From positions 1-45,420 of the forward strand of contig JAJRUV010000179.1 of NCBI GenBank assembly GCA_024277595.1: 45,420 bases of DNA. Direction: 5' to 3'. A program made the position numbers and the translations under genes. Every line of letters begins with the position of its first letter. Positions within the stretch are counted from its first letter, which is position 1. The notes under the pieces are model-generated. The model was not told where the DNA came from and did not search any database. It saw only the letters and a list, made by a program, of their open reading frames with translations. This DNA comes from Gammaproteobacteria bacterium (lineage in GTDB: Bacteria > Pseudomonadota > Gammaproteobacteria > Thiohalospirales > Thiohalospiraceae). Of the stretch, positions 6,195-44,688 are shown one piece after another.

Positions 6195-7184
6195 ATGAGC
6201 ACACCACTACTGGAAGTCAGAGACCTGAAAAAACACTTTCCTGTGAAATCAGGCCTGTTTCATCGCACGACAGCTCATTTGCGCGCAGTCGATGGCGTCA
6301 GTTTCACCATTGAGAAAGGCCGGACACTTGGTCTTGTGGGTGAATCAGGCTGCGGCAAATCCACGCTGGGCAGGGCAATTCTTCGATTGCTTGAACCAAG
6401 CTCCGGTGATGTTCTGCTTAACGGAACCAGCATTATCGATACGCCTCGTAGCGGGATGCTGAGCCTGCGGCGCAAGATGCAGATGATTTTTCAGGATCCG
6501 TATTCCTCCCTGAGTCCACGCCGCACCGTGGCGCAGACAATCAGGGAGCCGCTGGATGTCCACAGTATAGGCACGCCTGCGGAACGGCGGCAGCGTGTCG
6601 ATGAGCTGCTCGATGTCGTCAGCATGGGGCTCCAGGTCAGAGACCGTTACCCGCATGAGTTCTCCGGTGGCCAGCGGCAGCGCATCGGAATTGCGCGAGC
6701 GTTGGCATTAAACCCTGAGTTTATTGTTGCGGACGAACCGGTTTCGGCTCTGGATGTTTCGGTTCAGTCACAGGTGCTGAATCTGATTGCTGATCTCAAG
6801 CGTGATCTTGGCATCGCCTTTTTGTTTATTTCCCATGACCTGGCGGTGATACAGCATGTCAGTGATGATGTGGGGGTGATGTATCTTGGCAAGCTGGTGG
6901 AATTTGCCTCGGCGGAAGACCTTTACAGAAACCCGAAGCATCCCTATACACGTGCATTGATAGCTGCGATACCAGTCCCGGAGCCTGGCAGGAAACGAGC
7001 CAGGCTAATTGTCAAAGGTGAAGTGCCTTCTCCGATTAATCCGCCGAGTGGCTGTCCGTTTCATACCCGATGCGCAGAGGTCAAGGCGATTTGCAGGAGT
7101 GAATTGCCTGCAGCTGTTGATGTCGGTGAAGGAGGCCGCTCTCACCTTGTCAATTGTCATCTGTACGGAAAAGCGTCTGACTGA
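6195..7184 (+). CDS. ABC transporter ATP-binding protein, OppF/DppF type
   Basis: Second ATPase of the importer, 329 residues, 7 bases after the OppD-type gene. It begins [33 protein letters not shown], the OppF hallmark. Motifs are Walker [24 protein letters not shown], signature [15 protein letters not shown], Walker [13 protein letters not shown] and ISHDLAVI. The C-terminal extension [19 protein letters not shown] with later cysteines matches the family. It closes the six-gene plus-strand operon. The 64 bases to the convergent dctM gene show no clear intrinsic terminator. Confidence 0.92.
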
Positions 7185-7248
7185 CTACGACAGTCAAAAT
7201 ATCTCAGCACGATTCTTGTGGAGTTACTCAAAAGTCTTTCTTTGATAT

Positions 7249-8625
7249 TTAATTGCCGTAGATCCGATCAGGCAGCCAGGTTGCCAGTTGCGGCCAGGCG
7301 GCAATCAGTCCCAGCGTGAGGATTTGAATCATGACAAACGGGATCGCTCCTTTATAAATTGTCATTGTCGATATTTCGGGCGGGGCAACCCCGCGCAGGT
7401 AAAATAATGCGAAACCAAATGGTGGAGTAAGAAAAGATGTCTGCAGGTTAATCGCGATCATGATGCCCAGCCATACCGGGTCGACTCCCATGACAAACAG
7501 TATCGGGCCAACAATCGGCACAACCACAAAGGTGATCTCGATAAAGTCCAGCACAAATCCCAGCAGGAACATCGCCAGCATGACCACGATGATAGCTCCG
7601 GCAGTACCGCCGGGCAGCCCGGTCAGGAACTCTCTGACAATATCGTCGCCTTCGTAGCCGCGAAAAACCAGTGAAAAAATTGATGCACCAATGAGTATCA
7701 TAAACACCATTGAGCTGATTTTTGTAGTGTTGCGCATGATTTCCCGAAGGGTATTCAGGTTTATTGCGCGTTTGCCTGTCGCGAGCATCAGGGCACCGGT
7801 GGCACCGACAGCTGCTGCCTCGGTAGGCGTTGCAAGACCTGCCAGGATCGAGCCCAGTACCGAAATGATAAGAACCAGCGGCGGCAGCAACACCCTGATG
7901 ACCTGAACAAGAAGCTTGGTGCCGGTCATTTCACCGGAGAGTACTTCCTTCTGAACCGGCATCGAACTCGGGCGTAGCCATGCTACTGAAAGAATATAGA
8001 TGATATAGAGCACAACCAGCATCAGCCCGGGAATGACTGCACCGAGAAACAAATCGCCAACCGATACGGTTTCAGGAGAGAAAATCCCCTGGCTGACCTG
8101 CGCCTGCTGGAAAGACGACGAAAGCACGTCACCTAACAGAACCAGGATAATCGAGGGGGGGATAATTTGCCCGAGGGTACCCGATGCGCTGATTGTGCCG
8201 GTTGCAATGGCCGGATCGTAGCCTTGTTTCAGCATGGTGGGCAACGAAAGCAGGCCCATTGTCACCACAGTTGCACCCACGATACCGGTGCTGGCCGCCA
8301 ACAGCATGCCCACCAGCGCTACGGAAACACCCAGCCCGCCTCGTAACTTTCCAAACAGCATCCCGAGTGTGCTGAGCAGGTCCTCGGCGATCCGGGTACG
8401 TTCGAGGGTAACGCCCATAAATACAAACAATGGCACCGCCATCAGCGTCTCATTGCCCATGATGCCGAAAATGCGATTTGGAATGGTGGCGAGAAAAGTT
8501 GCGTCAAATATGCCGGTAATAATTCCAATCAGGGCAAATACCAGCGCCGTGCCGGCAAGAGAAAACGCAACCGGGAAACCGGCCAGCAGGACAACGATCA
8601 CACTCAGAAATAACAATAGTGCCAT
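7249..8625 (-). CDS. dctM: TRAP transporter large membrane subunit (DctM)
   Basis: Large permease of a TRAP importer, 458 residues and rich in membrane helices. It uses an ion gradient, usually sodium, to move solute delivered by the binding protein. N-terminal MALLLFLSVIVVLLAGFPVAFSLAG and the blocks GNETLMAVPLFVFMGVTLERTRIAEDLL, GTLGQIIPPSIILVLLGDVLSSSF and FLTPPFGFALFYLRGVAPPEI are standard for the mannitol/chloroaromatic-type subgroup. It follows dctQ by 10 bases in the same operon. Its probable binding-protein partner is encoded convergently at 460-1545, separated by the ABC genes. Confidence 0.93.
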   Translation of the reverse strand: MALLLFLSVIVVLLAGFPVAFSLAGTALVFALIGIITGIFDATFLATIPNRIFGIMGNETLMAVPLFVFMGVTLERTRIAEDLLSTLGMLFGKLRGGLGVSVALVGMLLAASTGIVGATVVTMGLLSLPTMLKQGYDPAIATGTISASGTLGQIIPPSIILVLLGDVLSSSFQQAQVSQGIFSPETVSVGDLFLGAVIPGLMLVVLYIIYILSVAWLRPSSMPVQKEVLSGEMTGTKLLVQVIRVLLPPLVLIISVLGSILAGLATPTEAAAVGATGALMLATGKRAINLNTLREIMRNTTKISSMVFMILIGASIFSLVFRGYEGDDIVREFLTGLPGGTAGAIIVVMLAMFLLGFVLDFIEITFVVVPIVGPILFVMGVDPVWLGIMIAINLQTSFLTPPFGFALFYLRGVAPPEISTMTIYKGAIPFVMIQILTLGLIAAWPQLATWLPDRIYGN

Positions 8626-28119: not shown

Positions 28120-30273
28120 TCAGGCGCAGGTGCGAGTCACACGACTGACACCTGACATTCTGCGGATTCCTCTGATTACATTGGAAAGATGAGTCCGGTC
28201 CCGGACCAGTGTGGTAAAAATAAGATCGATACTTTCTCCGTGCTGTTCGTCCAGCGATACCTGTTCGATATTAGAACCGGCATCACCGATCATCGCAGCG
28301 ACTTCAGCAAGTGCTCCCGGTTTGTTAATGGCTTCGACATTGATTTCAACAGAGAAATCCTGCTCGATATTCTGCTCCCAGTTTACGGCGATCCACTTGC
28401 TGGGCTGTTTTCTGAATTCGCTGAGATTGCCGCAAATATCACGATGAATCACAATGCCCCGTCCGGCACTAAGATAACCCATGATCGAGTCACCGGGAAT
28501 CGGGTGACAGCAGCGGCCATAGCTCACCACCACTCCTTCGGTCCCGGCGATCGTGATCGGTTCCATGCTGTCGGAGCCGGCCAGATCATCTCGCGGTGCT
28601 TTTACAAGAACCCGGGCAACGATGGGTGCGAGTCGCTCACCCAGGCCGAGTTGTTCATAGAGTTCTGTTACGTTGCTAAGGTCGAGGTCATCCAGCAGTA
28701 CTTTCAGGCGATTGCGGCTGATTTTTCGTAACGAGGATCCGAGTTCTCTCATCGCCTGATCCAGCAATTTCTTGCCGAGGTTGGTTGCCTCACCGCTGCG
28801 CAGGTTTTTCAAATGCTGGCGAATGCTGTAACGCGCTTTCGCTGTTACGACGAAACTGAGCCAGCTCGGCTTTGGATGCGCGCCCTTGCCGGTGACGATC
28901 TCGATTGTCTGGCCATTTTTGAGCGGAGTACGTAATGGCATGCGGCGCCGCTCGATTTTTGCCGCAACACATTTGTTTCCGACATCAGTATGTACTGCAT
29001 AGGCGAAATCGACACAGGTAGCACCACGAGGCAGTCTCAGAATATCGCCCTTCGGAGTGAATACATACACCTTGTCAGGAAACAGATCGACCTTGACATG
29101 CTCCATGAATTCTTCTGAATTCGCGGCGGATTCCATCTCGTTGATACTGGCGAGCCATTCGCGGGCACGATCCTGCGGCGGCTGTTTTTCAGTGTCCTGA
29201 TCCTTGTATTGCCAGTGCGATGCAATCCCCTTCTCAGCCACCCGGTCCATATCGTGGGTACGAATCTGTACCTCGATCGGGATACCGTTCGGCCCCACCA
29301 GCGTGGTATGCAGCGACTGATATCCGTTGACGCGCGGAATGGCGATATAGTCCTTGAAGCGGCCTGGCATGGGTTTGTACAGTTGATGTACCGTGCCGAG
29401 TGCTCGATAGCACTGATCTACATTATCCACAATCAGACGGAACCCGAATACATCCGCAACTTCGCTCAACGGCCTGGTTTTGACGCGCATTTTCCTGTAG
29501 ATGCTATACAGATGTTTCTTGCGCCCCATAACGCTTCCCGTAATCTTGTCAGCACGAAGTGCCCGCCGTAAACGATCTGAAATACGTTTGACGATTTGTC
29601 GCTGATTGCCCTGCGCACGGCGAAGTGCTTTGTCGAGCACCCGGTATCGAAACGGGTAGGCGTACAGGAACCCGTAATCCTCAAGCTCGGTTTTCAGTGT
29701 ATTCATGCCAAGCCGGTTGGCAATCGGCGCATAGATCTCCAGGGTTTCGATAGCAATACGGCGTCTTTTGTCTGGCGACAGTGATTCCAGGGTTTGCATG
29801 TTGTGTATTCGGTCGGCCAGCTTTACGAGAATGACCCGAATGTCCTCAACCATGGCCAGCATCATTTTCCGGAAACTGGCAACCTGCACTTCGGCACGAC
29901 TGGTGAAATTCAGCTGATCCAGCTTGCTGACGCCATCTACCAGTTCAGCGATTTCATTGCCAAACTGCTGAGCTATCTGTTCCTTGTCCACGGGGGTATC
30001 TTCGATGACATCGTGCAGAATCGCTGCAGCAATAGTCTGGTGATCGAGATGTAGCTCGGCGAGGATGCTGGCCACCGCAATCGGATGGGTAATATAAGGC
30101 TCGCCGGAGTGTCGACGCTGTCCTTCGTGGGCAACAAGACCCAGCTCGTATGCATCCACGATGATCTGCTGTTGCTCTTCAGACAGGTAGCTCAGCTTGT
30201 GAATCAGCCGCCTGAACCCTGATCCGCGGCGCGGAATGGGTAATCGGTCAAAAATACTGGATGCACGTTCCAT
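28120..30273 (-). CDS. spoT: Bifunctional (p)ppGpp synthetase/hydrolase SpoT
   Basis: Stringent-response enzyme, 717 residues. The N-terminal HD hydrolase domain is intact ([16 protein letters not shown] and [12 protein letters not shown]). The synthetase domain has [48 protein letters not shown] and IEVQIRT. The RFKD sequence matches the RxKD class of bifunctional enzymes rather than the ExDD class of RelA. A TGS domain ([31 protein letters not shown]) and a C-terminal ACT domain follow. It is encoded between rpoZ and ridA, and its leader carries a 14-bp tandem repeat. Confidence 0.96.
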
Positions 30274-36602: not shown

Positions 36603-39239
36603 TTAGAATATATCGTCACCTTCCTGTTCGGAATCCGGTAACTGCCCGTTAACAGGGTCGATGCGGCTCTCCGCAATTTCGGTGGGCACATGGTCTTCAC
36701 GAAACAGCTCGAATATTGCGTCCGGGTAGCCGGCGGGAGCCAGCTGCCCGGTCTGCGCTGAAATACGTACGGTAACCAGACCAGGGGGTCTCGGGATAGT
36801 GGCATCCCGCGTACCAGCCAATGCCTCGGTCATGAAATATTTCCAGACAGGCAAAGCAGTTCGACTGCCTTCCTCTGTAGCGCCGAGTGAGCGCTCCTGA
36901 TCAAATCCTACCCAGGCGGTTGCCACGATATCTCCGTTGAAACCACTGAACCAGGTATCCCGTCTTTCGTTGGATGTGCCGGTCTTGCCGGCCAGATCCT
37001 TACGGCCCAGTTCCCGGATGCGGCGGCCGGTACCACGGCGAATCACATCTCGCATCATGTCGTATATGAGATAGGCATTTTGCTGCGAAATGATACGCGG
37101 AGCGGCTTCGGAATCGTCGAAAAACTTCGGGGTTTCCTCAGCGTCAGGTCGCCAGTCAGTGGCATTGGCAATCATCTGGGTAGCATCGGAATAGAAGGGT
37201 ACTTCGGTTTCGGGTAATTGCAGCGAGCTTTCGCTGTTCTCGTTTTTCTCATCTGTTGTTGCCCCGGTTGCTTCGAATTGGCCCAGGGCGATTATTGCCG
37301 GGTCAACGGGCGCCGGTTCCGGAACTGGTGCGCAAGTAGCGCAAACATAACGAGGGTTGGCTTCGAACACGACATTCCCGGTTGAGTCCTCGATGCGCTC
37401 GACCAGGTAGCGTTCTACGTGATAGCCGCCATTGGCAAAAGCGGTATAGCCGCTGGCAATATCCCACGGGGACGCTCCGCCGCTTCCCAGTGCCAGCGAC
37501 GGGTCTCGTGGCAGGGCGCTGGGAGGAAAACCAAATGGGCGAATATGTTTCAGTGTTGCCCTGATGCCCATCCCGAGCAGCAGACGGACTGAAACGAGGT
37601 TGATGGATTTGACCAGCCCTTCCCGCATTCGTGTGGGGCCATGAAACCGGCGGGAATAGTTTTCGGGGCGCCAGGTATCCTCCAGAGTTTCATCAGCGAA
37701 TACTACGGGGGCATCATTGACCACAGACGCCACAGTGAAACCATTTTCCAGTGCTGCCGAGTAGACGAAGGGCTTGAAGTTGGAGCCGGGTTGCCGTTTC
37801 GCCTGAACTGCCCGGTTGAACTTGCTGGCAAAAAAATCAAAGCCGCCGGTGAGTGCCGCGGTTGCACCGTCGAGAGGGTCCATCGCGACAAAAGCTCCCT
37901 GGACTTCCGGCATTTGAGCAAGTTGCCAGCCGCCATCAACGGTGCGCAGCAGGTAGACAAGATCCCCGACAGCCAGAATTTCGTCCACAGACTGCTGTGC
38001 ATTGCCAACCGTGTTGTCATTTTCCCAGAATCGCCACTTTATTCTGTCCCATGGCAGGGTTTGTCGGCCTGAGTTACGAACGAAAAATTGTGCAGAATTG
38101 TCCTCGGCAAGGTTCAGCACTACTGCCAGATGCATATCGCGGTATACCGGATACCCGGCGAGCAGCTCTTGCAGCTGCATGTCCTGATCTGCTGGTTCCG
38201 GTGTCGCAGCTCCCTTAGCAGTATTTTCGGATGGTTGAGTTTTTAGTGGCTGCAGCACATTTCGAGCTACCGGACCACGGTATACGTGCCGGCGATCATA
38301 TTCGAGCAAAGCTTTGCGCAGGCTAAGCTGCGCTGCTGACTGCAGGTGGCTGTCTATGGTGGTGAATACTTTATAGCCATCAGAATATGCACTTAATCCG
38401 AATTTCCCTACCATCTCGGCACGAACCATCTCGGTGACGTATGGGGCTCGAAGCTCAATAATTGGCCCGTGCAAATGAGACTCCATCGGAGTGTCCATGG
38501 CTCGCCGGTATTCTTCCGGGTTGATAAATTGCAATTCAAGCATCCGTCGAAGTACATAGCTGCGCCGTGCCGTTGCGAGTCTCGGGTTCGATACGGGGTT
38601 CAGCGTAGAGGGCGCTTTGGGCAGCCCGGCAATCGTTGCCACTTCCGCAAGGCTAAGCTCCACCAGCGGCTTGCCGAAATAGACCTCCGCTGCCGCACCA
38701 ATGCCATAGGCGCGTTGGCCAAAAAATATCTTGTTCAGGTATAGCGAGAGGATTTCTTCTTTTGAGAATTCACTTTCAATGCGCAGAGCCAGGAATAGTT
38801 CTTTCGCTTTTCGCTCGAAGGTGCGTTCTCGGGTAAAAAAGTACACCGTAGCCAGTTGCTGTGTAATCGTGCTGCCACCTTGACTCCGGACACCAGTGCG
38901 CAGCAGGCTGAATCCAGCGCGCAGTATTCCCTGGTAGTCGAATCCCGGGTGCTCGAAAAAGCGATCATCTTCCGCGGCAAGAAATGCCCTGATGACGATA
39001 TCAGGAATATCTGCGTATTCAGTGGGTGTGCGCCGCTTTTCACCGATTTGCGCCATTAATCGGCCATCTCTTGAATAAATCCGCAGAGGTGTCTGAAGCT
39101 TCACTTCGCGCAGCGTTTCCGCTGATGGAAGGCCCGGCTTGAGATAGAAATAGGCGCCGAGGATGACCGTCAGGCCGGCGATAATTGCTGCCAAACCAAG
39201 CCCCAGAAGGGCGGGCAGGACTCGCTTGAGTATATTCAT
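36603..39239 (-). CDS. mrcA: Class A penicillin-binding protein 1a
   Basis: Bifunctional peptidoglycan synthase, 878 residues. One N-terminal membrane anchor (about residues 8-32) precedes the GT51 transglycosylase domain, with AAEDDRFFEHPGFDYQGILRA (catalytic glutamate), GGSTITQQLA and KAKELFLALRIESEFSKEEILSLYLNKIFFG. The transpeptidase domain has SxxK in RQPGSNFKPFVYSAAL, SxN in VKSINLVSVRLL and KTG in LAGKTGTSNERRDTWFSGF. An OB-like insert lies between them, typical of PBP1a rather than PBP1b. The gene is divergent from pilMNOPQ, a common gammaproteobacterial arrangement. Confidence 0.96.
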   Translation of the reverse strand: MNILKRVLPALLGLGLAAIIAGLTVILGAYFYLKPGLPSAETLREVKLQTPLRIYSRDGRLMAQIGEKRRTPTEYADIPDIVIRAFLAAEDDRFFEHPGFDYQGILRAGFSLLRTGVRSQGGSTITQQLATVYFFTRERTFERKAKELFLALRIESEFSKEEILSLYLNKIFFGQRAYGIGAAAEVYFGKPLVELSLAEVATIAGLPKAPSTLNPVSNPRLATARRSYVLRRMLELQFINPEEYRRAMDTPMESHLHGPIIELRAPYVTEMVRAEMVGKFGLSAYSDGYKVFTTIDSHLQSAAQLSLRKALLEYDRRHVYRGPVARNVLQPLKTQPSENTAKGAATPEPADQDMQLQELLAGYPVYRDMHLAVVLNLAEDNSAQFFVRNSGRQTLPWDRIKWRFWENDNTVGNAQQSVDEILAVGDLVYLLRTVDGGWQLAQMPEVQGAFVAMDPLDGATAALTGGFDFFASKFNRAVQAKRQPGSNFKPFVYSAALENGFTVASVVNDAPVVFADETLEDTWRPENYSRRFHGPTRMREGLVKSINLVSVRLLLGMGIRATLKHIRPFGFPPSALPRDPSLALGSGGASPWDIASGYTAFANGGYHVERYLVERIEDSTGNVVFEANPRYVCATCAPVPEPAPVDPAIIALGQFEATGATTDEKNENSESSLQLPETEVPFYSDATQMIANATDWRPDAEETPKFFDDSEAAPRIISQQNAYLIYDMMRDVIRRGTGRRIRELGRKDLAGKTGTSNERRDTWFSGFNGDIVATAWVGFDQERSLGATEEGSRTALPVWKYFMTEALAGTRDATIPRPPGLVTVRISAQTGQLAPAGYPDAIFELFREDHVPTEIAESRIDPVNGQLPDSEQEGDDIF

Positions 39240-39260: not shown

Positions 39261-39289
39261 TTGCGTTGTTGAGGGTGATTATGCATATT
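39261..39289 (+). promoter_or_regulatory. Weak candidate promoter before the riboswitch
   Basis: TTGCGT (39261-39266), 17 bases, CATATT (39284-39289; four of six -10 matches). A start near 39296 would clip the P1 stem of the aptamer, so the true start may be farther upstream. Low confidence. Confidence 0.2.
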
Positions 39290-39291
39290 AG

Positions 39292-39419
39292 CGGCGGTTT
39301 TTGGGCAAACCTGCTGAAAAGCGGGGACGCAAAGCTACCGGTCTACGGGAATATATTGGGCGGTGACGGTCGTGGTGAGACGTCATGGAGGAGCCAATCC
39401 TATGATAGCGGGGCTGCCG
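39292..39419 (+). ncRNA. Class I cyclic-di-GMP riboswitch (GEMM-I) in the pilMNOPQ leader
   Basis: Conserved blocks appear in order: GGGCAAACC at 39303-39311, the P2 stem CCTGCT (39310-39315) / AGCGGG (39320-39325) with a GAAA tetraloop (39316-39319), GGACGCAAAGC at 39325-39335, and the P3 base GCTA (39334-39337) / TAGC (39406-39409). A tetraloop-receptor-like internal loop follows (TCTACGG at 39342-39348 with CCTATGA at 39399-39405), then GCGGGG. P1 closes as CGGCGG (39292-39297) with CTGCCG (39414-39419), including one G-U pair. The guanine in GGG and the cytosine at 39417 correspond to the ligand-contacting G20 and C92 of the Vc2 aptamer, by manual alignment. P3 carries an extended tip with ATTGG/CCAAT (39355-39359/39394-39398) and TGACG/CGTCA (39364-39368/39381-39385). 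Gene context (type IV pilus) fits cyclic-di-GMP control. Confidence 0.88.
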
Positions 39420-39420
39420 G

Positions 39421-39452
39421 ATCACCTGATTGAACTATTTCAACAGGGTGAT
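39421..39452 (+). promoter_or_regulatory. Stem-loop directly after the riboswitch aptamer
   Basis: ATCACCTG and CAGGGTGAT pair with one bulge, and inside them TTGAA / TTCAA closes a CTAT loop. It begins one base after the aptamer P1. No T-run follows, so it is not an obvious intrinsic terminator; it may be part of the expression platform. Confidence 0.5.
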
Positions 39453-39501
39453 GTGTGCTGTCTTGATATTATTCGGGCTTCTTGTCATTTCACTCTGATC
39501 A

Positions 39502-39522
39502 GGCAGTATTTTCAATATTGCC
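39502..39522 (+). promoter_or_regulatory. Second stem-loop in the pilM leader
   Basis: GGCAGTATT (39502-39510) and AATATTGCC (39514-39522) form a 9-bp stem (one G-U) around a TTC loop. No T-tract follows. It lies between the riboswitch and pilM, in leader RNA otherwise without a supported gene (39420-39687). Confidence 0.5.
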
Positions 39523-39574
39523 GCTATCAATATCCGTATCTGGAAGCCAGGCAACAAGTTGGGTTCTGACTTTA

Positions 39575-39604
39575 TTGTGAACGGGGTCATATTTAGTTTA
39601 TATC
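39575..39604 (+). promoter_or_regulatory. Candidate internal promoter closer to pilM
   Basis: TTGTGA (39575-39580), 18 bases, TATATC (39599-39604), four of six matches in each box. If active it would bypass the riboswitch and give basal pilM expression. Low confidence. Confidence 0.25.
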
Positions 39605-39687
39605 TTTGCTGATATATAGTTAAATAGGCTTCCTAAGGCATTAGGCCAGAATCTTGTCGCAAACTTCGGACTTAGAAGGAAAAAGGT

Positions 39688-40749
39688 GTGGTATTCGGGT
39701 CTCGAACCAAGTCCTTGATCGGACTTGACATAACTACCTCATCGATCAAGCTCATCGAGCTGGTTCAAAGTGGCAGAGGATTCCGTGTGGAAGGCTATGC
39801 GGCGGAGGCTACACCTCCGAATTCGATCAATGAGAAGAGTATTGTTGATGCCGAGGCTGTGGGTGAGGCGATTCGCCGTGCTGTCAAGCGTTCCGGCACC
39901 AAAACCAGGGAAGTTGCGCTGGCGATCAATGGCGATGCGGCAATTACCAAAGTCATTCAGATGCCTCGCAGCCTGGGCGAAAATGAAATGGAAGGCCAGG
40001 TAGAGCTGCAGGCTGATCAATATATTCCCTTTCCCATGGAAGAAGTCAGCTTTGACTTTGAGATCATGGGCGAGTCCGCAAATGACCCGGATATGTGGGA
40101 TGTATTACTGGTTGCAACACGAACCGAGAATGTAGACCACCGACGCGCTGCAGTCGAAGCAGCCGGCCTGATACCAAAAGTCGTAGATGTTGAGGCCTTT
40201 GCACTTGAGAATGCCTGTATGTTACTGGCTCATCAAATGCCGGAAGGTGGCATTAATCAACAGATTGCGGTGGTAGACTTCGGCGCCAGCAATACGACGT
40301 TCAGTGTTCTCAAGGACATGCGGGTCATTTATACAAGAGATTTTTCTTTCGGCGGGCAGCAGTTGACCGAGGAGATCATGCGTACCTACGGATTGAGCCT
40401 TGAAGACGCTGGTCGCGCCAAGAAGGAAGGTGGTTTGCCCAGCAACTACCAGCCCGAGGTGTTGGATCCGTTCATAGATGATATGACGCAGCAGGTGAGT
40501 CGCTCATTACAGTTCTTTCTGGCTTCAGGCGGCGGTCGCGATCAGCCTGATCAAATTCTGGTTTGTGGTGGTTGTGCCAATATTCCCGGCGTTGCAGATT
40601 TGATATCGAGCAAGGTGGGCATTCCCGCAGCAGTGGGAGATCCCCTGGGCGAGATGAAATTGTCATCAAGAGCCAAGGCGCACGGTGTTCGCAAGGATGC
40701 GACAGCATTGTTGACAGCCTGCGGGCTGGCTCTCAGGAGTTTTGACTGA
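39688..40749 (+). CDS. pilM: Type IV pilus inner-membrane platform protein PilM
   Basis: Actin-like cytoplasmic protein that binds the PilN N-terminus, 353 residues. The start is GTG 39688, with AGAAGGA at 39674-39680 seven bases away. LIGLDITTSSIKLIELVQSGRGF is the N-terminal nucleotide-binding strand, AVVDFGASNTTFSVLKD is the phosphate-2 region and ILVCGGCANIPGVADLI is the C-terminal ATPase-fold segment. It leads the pilMNOPQ operon. TTCCT (39630-39634) in the leader could pair with AGGAA in the ribosome site. Confidence 0.95.
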   Translation: MVFGSRTKSLIGLDITTSSIKLIELVQSGRGFRVEGYAAEATPPNSINEKSIVDAEAVGEAIRRAVKRSGTKTREVALAINGDAAITKVIQMPRSLGENEMEGQVELQADQYIPFPMEEVSFDFEIMGESANDPDMWDVLLVATRTENVDHRRAAVEAAGLIPKVVDVEAFALENACMLLAHQMPEGGINQQIAVVDFGASNTTFSVLKDMRVIYTRDFSFGGQQLTEEIMRTYGLSLEDAGRAKKEGGLPSNYQPEVLDPFIDDMTQQVSRSLQFFLASGGGRDQPDQILVCGGCANIPGVADLISSKVGIPAAVGDPLGEMKLSSRAKAHGVRKDATALLTACGLALRSFD

Positions 40750-40750
40750 C

Positions 40751-41323
40751 ATGCCTCGTATTAATTTATTGCCATGGCGCGATGAGCAGCGACAAAAACG
40801 TCGTCTGGAGTTTTTTGTTGCGATGGGCATTGCATTGGCCGTAGGCGGGCTCATTGTGCTGCTCGGGCATCTGGCAATGAACGACATTGTTGATCAGCAA
40901 AAGGCTCGCAACGACCTTCTCAAGACAGAGATTTCTGCGCTGAATAAACGAATCGAGGAAATCCTTGAACTTGAGGACAAGAAAGACCGTCTGCTGGCAA
41001 GAATGGAAATTATTGAGGAGCTGCAGCGCAGCCGGCCAGAGATTGTTCATGTCTTTGAAGAGCTGGTGAATACCCTGCCTGATGGCACCCATCTTACCGA
41101 GGTCAGGCAATCCGGACGGCGTATTGAGATCAGGGGTACCGCCGAATCCAATACCCGGGTATCTGCGCTGATGAGAAATATCAATGCATCGGACTGGTTG
41201 ACAGAACCTGATCTTGATGTTGTGCAGGTTCGCGAGGGTCGCAACAGCGATGGCACCCGGGCGAGCGAGTTCACGGTTTTTGCCAGGCAGGTTTCGACTG
41301 AAGCAGCGGAGGAAGCAGAATGA
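40751..41323 (+). CDS. pilN: Type IV pilus alignment protein PilN
   Basis: 190 residues from ATG 40751; TTG 40742 is possible but less likely. The cytoplasmic INLLPWRDEQRQKRR motif, which binds the PilM groove, precedes one membrane helix (about residues 20-42), a coiled-coil segment rich in Glu/Lys and a periplasmic ferredoxin-like domain. It forms a heterodimer with PilO in the alignment complex. AGGAG at 40735-40739 is inside the end of pilM. Confidence 0.94.
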   Translation: MPRINLLPWRDEQRQKRRLEFFVAMGIALAVGGLIVLLGHLAMNDIVDQQKARNDLLKTEISALNKRIEEILELEDKKDRLLARMEIIEELQRSRPEIVHVFEELVNTLPDGTHLTEVRQSGRRIEIRGTAESNTRVSALMRNINASDWLTEPDLDVVQVREGRNSDGTRASEFTVFARQVSTEAAEEAE

Positions 41324-41934
41324 ACTTTCTCGATCAACTGCAAAGCCTGGATACCAGCGATATTGGGCGCTGGCCGCTTGTTTTTCGGGCATTATTTGTT
41401 GGTTTGTTTTTTTTCGTCATTGTAATCGCGGGTTCCTACTTTCTCGTATATGAGAAACAAATGCCCCGTCTTGAGCGGGCACAGACGGAAGAACAGGAAT
41501 TACGATCTTCTTTTGAGTCCAAACAAAGAAAGGCCGCTAATTTTAGTGCTTATCGTGACCAGCTCGCCGAGATCGAGCGTTCCTTCGGCACAATGCTCAG
41601 GCAGTTGCCGGGTAAAACCGAAATCCCCAACCTGCTGGTCGATATATCACAGACGGGGCTGGCGGCCGGGCTGCAGGAAGATCTTTTCCAGCCGATGGAC
41701 GAGAACTTCAAAGAGTTTTATGCCGAAAAGCCCATCAAGATTCGGCTGAGAGGGAACTATCACGAGTTTGGGCAGTTTGTCAGCGATGTCGCTGCATTAC
41801 CGCGTATTGTGACTTTGCACGATGTGGAAATTTCGGGACAGGGCGGGGATGCTGATTTTGATGACCTCGTGTTGAACGTAACGGCGAAAACCTACCGTTA
41901 TCTGGACGAAGACGAAGCGGTTGACGAGGGATGA
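41320..41934 (+). CDS. pilO: Type IV pilus alignment protein PilO
   Basis: 204 residues, ATGA overlap with pilN. A short cytoplasmic segment is followed by one helix (about 26-46), a coiled coil (LERAQTEEQELRSSFESKQRKAANFSAYRDQL) and a periplasmic domain with LPGKTEIPNLLVDISQTGLAAGL and IRLRGNYHEFGQFVSDVAALPRIVTLHD, typical of PilO. Length and domain order match the family. Confidence 0.94.
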   Translation: MNFLDQLQSLDTSDIGRWPLVFRALFVGLFFFVIVIAGSYFLVYEKQMPRLERAQTEEQELRSSFESKQRKAANFSAYRDQLAEIERSFGTMLRQLPGKTEIPNLLVDISQTGLAAGLQEDLFQPMDENFKEFYAEKPIKIRLRGNYHEFGQFVSDVAALPRIVTLHDVEISGQGGDADFDDLVLNVTAKTYRYLDEDEAVDEG

Positions 41935-42461
41935 TGAAGAAGAATCCTGCAGCAAGATTTTCCGCGGTCGCTTCACTGCTGTTGACAGTTGTGCTGGTGT
42001 CCGGGTGTTCGAACGATATGTCTGATCTGCAAAGCTATATTGATGACACCAAGGCGCGTCCTGGCGGACGTATCGAAGCATTACCGCAAATCAAGCCCTA
42101 TGAAACCTATACTTATCAGGCTTCAGGCAGGCGCTCACCATTTGCCCCGGTTCAGCAAACAGCGTCCGGTGGTCAGCCAACGGGCCCGCAACCCATTGAA
42201 AACCGGAACAAGGAATACCTGGAGCAGTTCCCGCTGGATTCTCTGGAGATGGTCGGGACGCTGGAAACAGATGGCCAGACCTATGCTTTGGTTCAGACCA
42301 GGGATTCGTTGGTGCACCGGGTGCAGCCTGGAAATTATATTGGTCAGAACGATGGGCGCATAGTGGCGGTCACCGAATCGGAAATATCGATAGAGGAACT
42401 CGTTGCGGATGGCATCGGGGGATTTTTCAATCGGTCTGCAGCAATCGGGCTGAGTAACTGA
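41931..42461 (+). CDS. pilP: Type IV pilus lipoprotein PilP
   Basis: 176 residues; ATGA overlap with pilO, with a second in-frame ATG at 41934. A lipoprotein signal ends LVSGC. The early linker DLQSYIDDTKARPGGRIEALPQIKPYETYTYQASGRRSPFAP is the PilN/O-binding region, and the C-terminal beta domain (LEMVGTLETDGQTYALVQTRDSLVHRVQPGNYIGQNDGRIVAVTESEI) contacts PilQ. Confidence 0.95.
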   Translation: MMKKNPAARFSAVASLLLTVVLVSGCSNDMSDLQSYIDDTKARPGGRIEALPQIKPYETYTYQASGRRSPFAPVQQTASGGQPTGPQPIENRNKEYLEQFPLDSLEMVGTLETDGQTYALVQTRDSLVHRVQPGNYIGQNDGRIVAVTESEISIEELVADGIGGFFNRSAAIGLSN

Positions 42462-42492: not shown

Positions 42493-44688
42493 ATGATGAG
42501 CACAGGTAGGCCAAAAAAGGCTGACACCACCGGACAAAAAGTGGCAGCGATGCTGCAGGTATTGTTCTGTGGAGCGATGCTGGCACTGGCGGGGATTTCT
42601 ACGGCTGTAGCCGAGGAGTCGGGTATTAGTTTGCAGGACATACAGGTTCATGCATTACCCGGCAACAAGATCGAGTTGCGGCTGATGTTGTCAGGCCCGG
42701 CTCCGGAGCCACTGAGTTTTACTATTGATTCGCCTGCACGGATCGCACTGGATCTCCGAGGTACATCGCTGGGGCTGAAATCCCGCCGCAAGGACGTGGG
42801 TATCGGTGTGCTGGATACAATCCTTGCTGCCGAGGCAAACGGGCGAACCCGGGTGGTGCTCAACCTCGATACAATGGTTTCCTACCAGATGCGGGCTTCG
42901 GGCAATGATGTTTATGTGACTCTGGGTGGGGACACATCCGAGCCAGCGGCAGTGACCGCATTTGATTCTGTCAGGTCGGCTCCCGGCTCTTCGGGTACCG
43001 CGGCGGGCAGCCAGAGAATCGAGGCTGTTGATTTTCGCCGCTCAAGCAGTGGTGGTGGACGTGTCATCATTTCAATGTCAGATGCCGGCATTCCGGTGGA
43101 TGTACGACAGGAAGCCGGTAATATTATTGTCAATTTTATTGGTGCGGAACTCCCGGACGCGTTGTTGAAGCGTCTGGACGTCATGGATTTTGCCACGCCT
43201 GTCAACACAGTTGACATAGTGCGTGTTGGCAACGATACGCGGCTCATTATTGCAGCGACTACGCCATTCGAGGAGCTGGCTTATCAGTCTGACACGGTAT
43301 TTACTGTAGAAGTACAACCCGTAATTGAGGAAGAACAGGAAATACAGGTTTCACTGTACAGCGCTGAACGTGACTATTCGGGTGAGCGGCTGACACTGAA
43401 TTTTCAGGATATTGAGACCCGCGCGGTGTTGCAATTACTGGCAGATGTCAGCGGCAGGAATATTATCGTCGCTGATACGGTCCAGGGCAATGTCACGCTG
43501 CGCCTGCAGAGTGTTCCCTGGGACCAGGCTCTGGATATTGTTCTGGCCACCAAAGGTCTGGATATGCGGGAAAACGGCAATGTTATTATTGTCGCACCCC
43601 GGGAAGAAATCGCAGCGCGGGAGAAGGCAGACCTTGAATCGCGCAAGGAAATCAGCAAACTTGAGCCGCTGACCTCGGAATTCCTGCAGGTTAATTACGC
43701 CAAGGCTGCAGATCTTGCCAGCCTGATCCAGCAAGCAGGTGTTAATTTCATGCTTTCCGAGCGTGGCTCGATTGGCATTGATGAGCGCACCAATACACTG
43801 TTGTTGCAGGATACCGCCGAGCGGATTGCAGCCATTCGCCGACTGGTGACAACACTGGATATTCCGGTGCGCCAGGTGCTCATCCAGGCAAGGATTGTCA
43901 TAGTCAGCGACACATTCAGCAGGGATCTGGGTACCCGTTGGGGTGTGACGGCCGTGGATGACCGGTCTGGAAATGGTCTGGTATCGGTTACCGGTTCCGC
44001 CGAAGGGAATGACGACATCGTTCAATCGGGCATCGCCAATATTAATGCCAACGGTTCACCATTTCCCGTAACCTTACCAACACTGAATGACCGGTTTGGC
44101 GTGAATTTGCCGATCGCCAGCCCCGCAGGTCAACTGGCGGTGGCGATACTGGATGATGATTTTCTGGTTGATCTTGAGCTTTCTGCCATGCAGGCGGAAG
44201 GCAACGGCGAGGTGATTTCATCACCACGCATTATTACTGCCAACCAGAAGCAAGCCATTATCAAGTCGGGCGTGGAGATTCCATACCAGCAATCGGCATC
44301 AAGTGGTGCAACGACAGTACAGTTCAAAGAAGCTGTGCTGAGTCTTACAGTAACACCGCAAATCACCCCGGATGACCGCATCATCATGGACTTGCTGGTC
44401 ACCAAGGACAGCATCGGCAGAGTGGTCAGCGATTCACTCGGTGGTTCGATTCCCAGCATCGATACACGTTCGATTGAGACGCAGGTATTGGTGAACAACG
44501 GACAGACAGTTGTTCTGGGTGGCATTTACGAGACTGAACTGACAGAAGATGAAACGAAAGTACCTTATCTTGGCGATATTCCGTTCCTGGGGGCTTTGTT
44601 CAAGTCAACTCGCGTCAGATCGAAGAGGACGGAACTACTGATATTTGTGACCCCGAAAATAATAAAAGAAGGCTCAATCATCAACTAG
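42493..44688 (+). CDS. pilQ: Type IV pilus secretin PilQ
   Basis: Outer-membrane secretin, 731 residues. ATG 42493 has GGGAG at 42481-42485. A long signal region ends near STAVAEE. Two N-terminal AMIN domains (about residues 40-130 and 160-260) bind peptidoglycan, followed by an STN domain (LNFQDIETRAVLQLLADVSGRNIIVADTVQGNVTLRL), an N1 domain and the secretin core with SSPRIITANQKQAIIKSGVEIPYQ, NNGQTVVLGGIYE and VPYLGDIPFLGALFKS. aroK does not follow, unlike many relatives. Confidence 0.96.
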   Translation: MMSTGRPKKADTTGQKVAAMLQVLFCGAMLALAGISTAVAEESGISLQDIQVHALPGNKIELRLMLSGPAPEPLSFTIDSPARIALDLRGTSLGLKSRRKDVGIGVLDTILAAEANGRTRVVLNLDTMVSYQMRASGNDVYVTLGGDTSEPAAVTAFDSVRSAPGSSGTAAGSQRIEAVDFRRSSSGGGRVIISMSDAGIPVDVRQEAGNIIVNFIGAELPDALLKRLDVMDFATPVNTVDIVRVGNDTRLIIAATTPFEELAYQSDTVFTVEVQPVIEEEQEIQVSLYSAERDYSGERLTLNFQDIETRAVLQLLADVSGRNIIVADTVQGNVTLRLQSVPWDQALDIVLATKGLDMRENGNVIIVAPREEIAAREKADLESRKEISKLEPLTSEFLQVNYAKAADLASLIQQAGVNFMLSERGSIGIDERTNTLLLQDTAERIAAIRRLVTTLDIPVRQVLIQARIVIVSDTFSRDLGTRWGVTAVDDRSGNGLVSVTGSAEGNDDIVQSGIANINANGSPFPVTLPTLNDRFGVNLPIASPAGQLAVAILDDDFLVDLELSAMQAEGNGEVISSPRIITANQKQAIIKSGVEIPYQQSASSGATTVQFKEAVLSLTVTPQITPDDRIIMDLLVTKDSIGRVVSDSLGGSIPSIDTRSIETQVLVNNGQTVVLGGIYETELTEDETKVPYLGDIPFLGALFKSTRVRSKRTELLIFVTPKIIKEGSIIN

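Follow-up and report, generated by a model that had tools for sequence, protein, structure and literature searches.

The window analysed here is a stretch of 45,420 nucleotides (contig JAJRUV010000179.1) that carries a type IV pilus assembly operon on its forward strand. Pfam identified all five genes of this operon, namely pilM (39688-40749; PF11104, 5.2e-124), pilN (40742-41323; PF05137, 2.9e-22), pilO (41320-41934; PF04350, 1e-51), pilP (41931-42461; PF04351, 1.2e-47), and a pilQ-type secretin gene with AMIN domains (42493-44688; PF00263, 7.5e-53; PF11741, 5.8e-32). The upstream neighbour on the minus strand is a divergent PBP1a-type gene (36603-39239; PF00912, 2e-62; PF00905, 2.8e-19), which is the usual gammaproteobacterial neighbourhood of pilMNOPQ. 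Further away on the minus strand, a RelA/SpoT-type bifunctional (p)ppGpp enzyme is encoded at 28120-30273, adjoining a guanylate kinase and a YicC-type gene.

Searching the window in full with cmscan and the complete Rfam 15 collection gave one match only, to the c-di-GMP-I (GEMM-I) model RF01051, at 39294-39421 on the forward strand (68.6 bits, E 1.7e-11), with an alignment covering the complete model (1-87) and a score well above the gathering cut-off of 35 bits. A sequence-only reading had placed a GEMM-I riboswitch before pilMNOPQ at 39292-39419 and had proposed an Infernal search with this model as a check; both the element, with coordinates 2 nt off, and its placement were borne out, and the placement proved to be conserved. 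The conserved blocks, the P2 helix with its GAAA loop, and P3 which that reading had described were all found in the alignment, which shows GGCAAACC, the GAAA-capped P2 hairpin, GACGCAAAGC, and the 3' strand UAUGAUAGCGGGGCUGCC. The P2 tetraloop (39316-39319) is of the GNRA type, and its receptor strands in P3 read CUACGG/CCUAUG (consensus CUAAGG), a variant that occurs identically in many relatives. The 5' strand of the P1 helix (UUUUUG, 39298-39303) pairs, by inspection, with C39418-A39421, and this U-run opposite C-R-R-R is kept in most group A leaders. Folding energy alone gave no significant signal for the aptamer in RNA-only thermodynamic folding (z -0.61), and its identification is based on the covariance model and on conservation instead.

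The pocket equivalents were intact in the cmscan alignment, with G39304, A39331, and C39417 presumably corresponding to G20, A47, and C92 of Vc2. At the G20 position, where cGAMP-type GEMM-Ib RNAs have an A, the alignment thus places a G, and for this reason the ligand is probably c-di-GMP rather than cGAMP. The aptamer shares these three positions and the GNRA loop on P2 with Vc2 (V. cholerae VC1722, PDB 3IRW) but differs from it in P3, which is ~45 nt longer. This extended P3 (39346-39401) is the sole unusual part of the aptamer. Its inner helix reads GUGACG/CGUCAU in the window and GUGAUG/CGUCAC in leader L031. A P3 longer by ~25-45 nt, with a helix of its own, was seen in most pilM-leader GEMMs of the clade, and covariance-model matches beside pilM were mostly 107-131 nt long, compared to ~85 nt for most GEMMs elsewhere in the same genomes.

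The source assembly is a 2.5-Mb metagenome-assembled genome (MAG) of 196 contigs (96.4% complete, 4.2% contaminated) in which pilM and citrate synthase each occur twice. Those genomes of the same genus that were checked carried only the other type, ~43% identical to that of the window. As the pilM and citrate synthase of the window are the second, distant copies, its contig (G000:C153) was probably mis-binned, and relatives were consequently sampled around L031, the leader of the closest PilM (93% identical, in another gammaproteobacterial MAG). The assembly's own genus was dropped as a misleading comparison set; no GEMM was found in this nominal genus. A second GEMM-I element of the assembly (L001, G000:C172:12638-12721; 69.9 bits) lies ~350 nt before a contig end with no target gene in view, and the genome of L031 has further GEMM-I elements (L152-L157) which, by inspection, precede genes for a c-type cytochrome, a PEP-CTERM-like, a thioredoxin-like, and a large secreted protein.

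A pattern search found the GEMM core ~325-450 nt upstream of pilM in 41 of 89 distinct pilM leaders, and a comparison of coordinates placed a covariance-model match directly upstream of pilM in at least 14 genomes (for example G144:C79:7724-7850, before pilM at 6396-7451 on the minus strand). On the PilM tree, the GEMM label needed 9 changes compared to 29 when shuffled, and GEMMs were present in both of the groups that the deepest PilM split separates, the root of this tree being arbitrary. These patterns fit a GEMM before pilM as an old trait with several losses, with gains also possible. Degenerate GEMM remnants in L144 and L149, and probably in L039, L040, and L045, support loss; in these leaders the aptamer is decayed or lost while both flanking promoter-like elements are kept. 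Since many relatives do without the riboswitch, its effect is perhaps modest. The pilM leaders of Woeseiaceae carry a different conserved element of ~200 nt at the GEMM position (GGCTGGTGCAAGGAATGTGGC ... GCGGCCGATGATAGACGG ... CTGCAATAACGAGTCT; L068:2660-2875, with equivalents in L069, L073, L076, L080, L083, L090, L098, L102, and L106). This element had no Rfam match and a weak consensus structure, and in several genomes it could be translated as a very short ORF resembling MCGWCKxCGF, which stops interrupt in others.

Upstream of the aptamer, a putative distal promoter was recognised at 39261-39289 on the forward strand, with TTGCGT (39261-39266) as the -35 element, a 17-nt spacer, and CATATT (39284-39289) as the -10 element. 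In 29 leaders the distance between TTGC and TTATGCAT is always 18 nt, and both are near-invariant in the leader alignment, with the pattern across leaders being TTGCnn, 17 nt, and CATATT, CATAGT, or CATCCT. Transcription from this promoter is predicted to start at ~39296, two bases before the U-run of the P1 helix, so that the transcript would begin with the aptamer itself. This distal -10 element reads as a palindrome and might also drive the divergent PBP1a gene.

Downstream of the aptamer, a hairpin (39418-39455) begins with the C that follows the ligand-pairing C, and it shares its first bases with the 3' side of the P1 helix, such that hairpin and P1 helix are mutually exclusive. Its stem in the window has one unpaired base near the foot. 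Among the 30 leaders outside group B, the anchored stem had a mean of 5.10 contiguous pairs compared to 4.23 for swapped leaders (reached in 0 of 2000 permutations), and 23 leaders had at least five pairs at the true anchor as opposed to 5-12 when the anchor was shifted by 1-10 nt. The arms co-vary (CAGAC/GTCTG, CAGGC/GCCTG, CAGAT/ATCTG, CGGAC/GTCCG, and CAGGGGCGG/CCGCCCCTG), and the hairpin was more stable against shuffles (mean z -0.81) than positions further downstream (-0.02 and -0.24). In the 11 leaders of group B, the stem CAGACC/GGTCTG is almost invariant and therefore uninformative on covariation.

The candidate platform is an anchored hairpin that competes with the P1 helix, with no terminator. 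No intrinsic terminator candidate was found between the aptamer and pilM in the window, including one of the Geobacter type that shares the aptamer 3' strand, and terminator candidates in relatives (10 of 29 leaders, compared to 16 of 87 shuffles) were scattered and not conserved in place. An anti-Shine-Dalgarno platform and a conserved ORF were likewise not found in the leader. The hairpin is followed by a pyrimidine-rich stretch with more C than G (39456-39540), a bias seen after the hairpin in 38 of the 41 GEMM leaders. The 60 nt after the hairpin had 59% pyrimidine and 12.9 YC steps; the values for a comparable region of GEMM-less leaders were 45% and 5.4, a comparison between clades without phylogenetic correction. 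This stretch is suggestive of a Rho-loading region. A C-over-G bubble across the whole spacer was too weak to be taken as a Rho signal (C/G ratio 0.74-1.63; 0.91 in the window), and the part directly behind the hairpin was alone in standing out. A longer pairing against the aptamer, between the 3' strand of P3 and the leader, was rejected as well: it is strong in L031 and weak in the window, and its mean z over the 41 leaders was 0.04.

A second promoter-like block lies at 39576-39618, 155-200 nt past the aptamer and ~60-110 nt before pilM (-112 to -63). It consists of a CRP-type palindrome, TGTGAACGGGGTCATA (39576-39591; 7 of 8 core letters), which elsewhere mostly reads CGTGAACAAAGTCACG or CGTGAGTAGCTTCACG, and of an extended -10 sequence match, TGA-TATATA (39610-39618), inside TGATATATAGTTAAAT. 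The palindrome had 7 or 8 of the 8 core letters in 76 of the 89 leaders, and in 53 of these 76 an extended -10 element (TGN and a hexamer matching in four or more of its six letters) had its centre at a distance of precisely 32 nt from that of the palindrome, with a shuffle mean of 0.41. A spacing of 32 nt between palindrome and -10 element corresponds to the class II CRP distance of -41.5. With a TGTGA-N6-TCACA-type site at this spacing, the block has the layout of a class II CRP-family promoter, and a start at ~39625 is predicted for this putative proximal promoter.

The -10 block was found in 71 of the 89 pilM leaders, 43 of which have no GEMM. The proximal block is more conserved than the aptamer and is the older or more essential element. 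An operon transcript that is free of the riboswitch is expected, starting ~200 nt below the aptamer, and because this second conserved promoter stands between aptamer and genes, the riboswitch would reach only that share of expression which starts upstream. The earlier statement that the riboswitch controls pilMNOPQ was therefore too strong, although it does precede the operon. In V. cholerae, TfoX, a regulator of competence, induces the pilM-Q operon (PMC3380833), which offers a parallel for combined regulation of a pilM operon.

The aptamer, its position, the anchored hairpin, and the promoter-like blocks are read from the sequence. From them I infer that the upstream transcript is switched at the level of transcription, perhaps with help from Rho; ligand binding, direction, and effect size are likewise inferred. 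In this model, which I consider somewhat better than an even bet, a canonical c-di-GMP-I riboswitch at the 5' end of the leader gates the distal transcript, and the proximal CRP-type promoter is independent of it. The distal promoter, ~390 nt before pilM, would produce a long leader RNA with the aptamer at its 5' end. The weak P1 helix, formed by UUUUUG and CRRR, would be locked in place once c-di-GMP binds, and the downstream hairpin would thereby be prevented; without ligand, that hairpin would form. The choice between P1 helix and hairpin would decide whether RNA polymerase passes through the pyrimidine-rich stretch, probably with the involvement of Rho, and this passage would set the amount of distal transcript that reaches pilMNOPQ. 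The conserved proximal promoter, whose CRP-type site has class II spacing, is located past this decision point and would allow riboswitch-independent transcription, such that the riboswitch may add a c-di-GMP-tuned share over a CRP-family-driven base level. Analogy with the Geobacter pilM switch, together with c-di-GMP favouring pili, gives a weak lean towards an ON switch.

Other explanations were weighed. Instead of acting on termination, the riboswitch may affect how the long leader mRNA is translated or how stable it is, a possibility also left open for Vc1/gbpA; the leader has no terminator, and Vc1, with a similarly long leader and neither terminator nor anti-Shine-Dalgarno, is still c-di-GMP-responsive (PMC4744006). 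The Shine-Dalgarno sequence of pilM is, however, ~255 nt past the aptamer, and the leader alignment showed no conserved pairing with it, which leaves this explanation at about one chance in four in my estimation. Rather less probable is that the proximal CRP-type promoter yields nearly all pilMNOPQ mRNA, with the distal riboswitch RNA being a minor or separate short transcript of little effect. The broad distribution of the proximal block, also without GEMM, and its retention in several relatives with absent or decayed aptamers agree with such a dominance, but the aptamer, distal promoter, hairpin, and distance have been kept across deep divergence, which suggests selection on the upstream arrangement.

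Binding of cGAMP by a GEMM-Ib aptamer, as at Geobacter pilM, is improbable: the pilM GEMM that has been studied most closely belongs to this type (PMC9262584, PMC6456294), but the window has G and not A at the position equivalent to Vc2 G20, although this position tunes cyclic-dinucleotide selectivity without being a hard filter (PMC9262584). A small ORF of 55 aa with its start within the aptamer (39402-39569) was considered as the target of the riboswitch, given a Shine-Dalgarno-like GGAGG in the P3 extension and an ATG in the P3 3' strand. This candidate was largely refuted and retains a very slight probability, as the ORF is not conserved and its ATG belongs to the aptamer consensus (CUAUGAYAGCGGGGCUGCC reads M-T/I-A-G-L-P). 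The ATG is absent from relatives with CUAGGAC, L031 shares only the first codons, and there is no Pfam match.

One of the nearest counterparts of the arrangement is found in G. metallireducens, where a GEMM-Ib aptamer before pilM responds to cGAMP and the ligand prevents a hairpin that uses the aptamer 3' strand, turning expression ON (PMC9262584). In G. sulfurreducens without GacA, genes of the pilMNOP operon were down 2-3-fold (PMC6456294). Common to the Geobacter switch and the window are the GEMM-I aptamer before the pilM operon and a downstream hairpin on the aptamer 3' strand that competes with the ligand. They differ in that Geobacter combines cGAMP with an intrinsic terminator, while the window has a G20-type pocket, lacks a terminator, anchors its hairpin one base closer to the 3' end, and has a second, putative promoter ahead of pilM. 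That the messenger extends to the pilus assembly machine itself, a point also made by the sequence-only reading, is consequently not new in kind (PMC9262584, PMC6456294); what is unusual here is the design of the leader. V. cholerae Vc1 is likewise a class I aptamer with which a leader of >200 nt begins, and neither terminator nor anti-Shine-Dalgarno is present in that leader (PMC4744006), but it precedes another gene (gbpA), and an intervening CRP-type promoter is not described there. In C. difficile, type IV pili are under a class II c-di-GMP riboswitch (as cited in PMC4744006); the aptamer class differs and the target is a pilin gene instead of the assembly operon. The TfoX-induced V. cholerae pilM-Q operon (PMC3380833) and the Haemophilus CRP-S regulon (cited in the same paper) are likewise cases of pilM-Q under competence or CRP-type regulation, from which the window differs by a TGTGA-type palindrome at class II distance and a riboswitch upstream. 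No report of a gammaproteobacterial pilM GEMM, and no leader that stacks a GEMM gate above a CRP-family promoter, was found in the open literature searched.

A broader, and more tentative, possibility is that the arrangement represents an ancient gammaproteobacterial control of pilMNOPQ, in which a c-di-GMP riboswitch with hairpin/Rho-type termination sits above a CRP-family class II promoter and two messengers set the supply of the pilus machine. If true, these messengers would be c-di-GMP acting through RNA, and cAMP or c-di-GMP acting through a CRP-type protein. Across a wide range of gammaproteobacterial lineages mainly known from metagenomes, the structural core of the type IV pilus, comprising the inner-membrane platform and the secretin, would be subject to second-messenger control through RNA, and the pilM operon also retains a CRP-type promoter of its own, situated past the riboswitch and ahead of pilM. 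The set of leaders, some with the aptamer, some without it, and some with a decayed one, provides natural replicates for how class I riboswitches switch without a terminator or anti-Shine-Dalgarno, as with Vc1.
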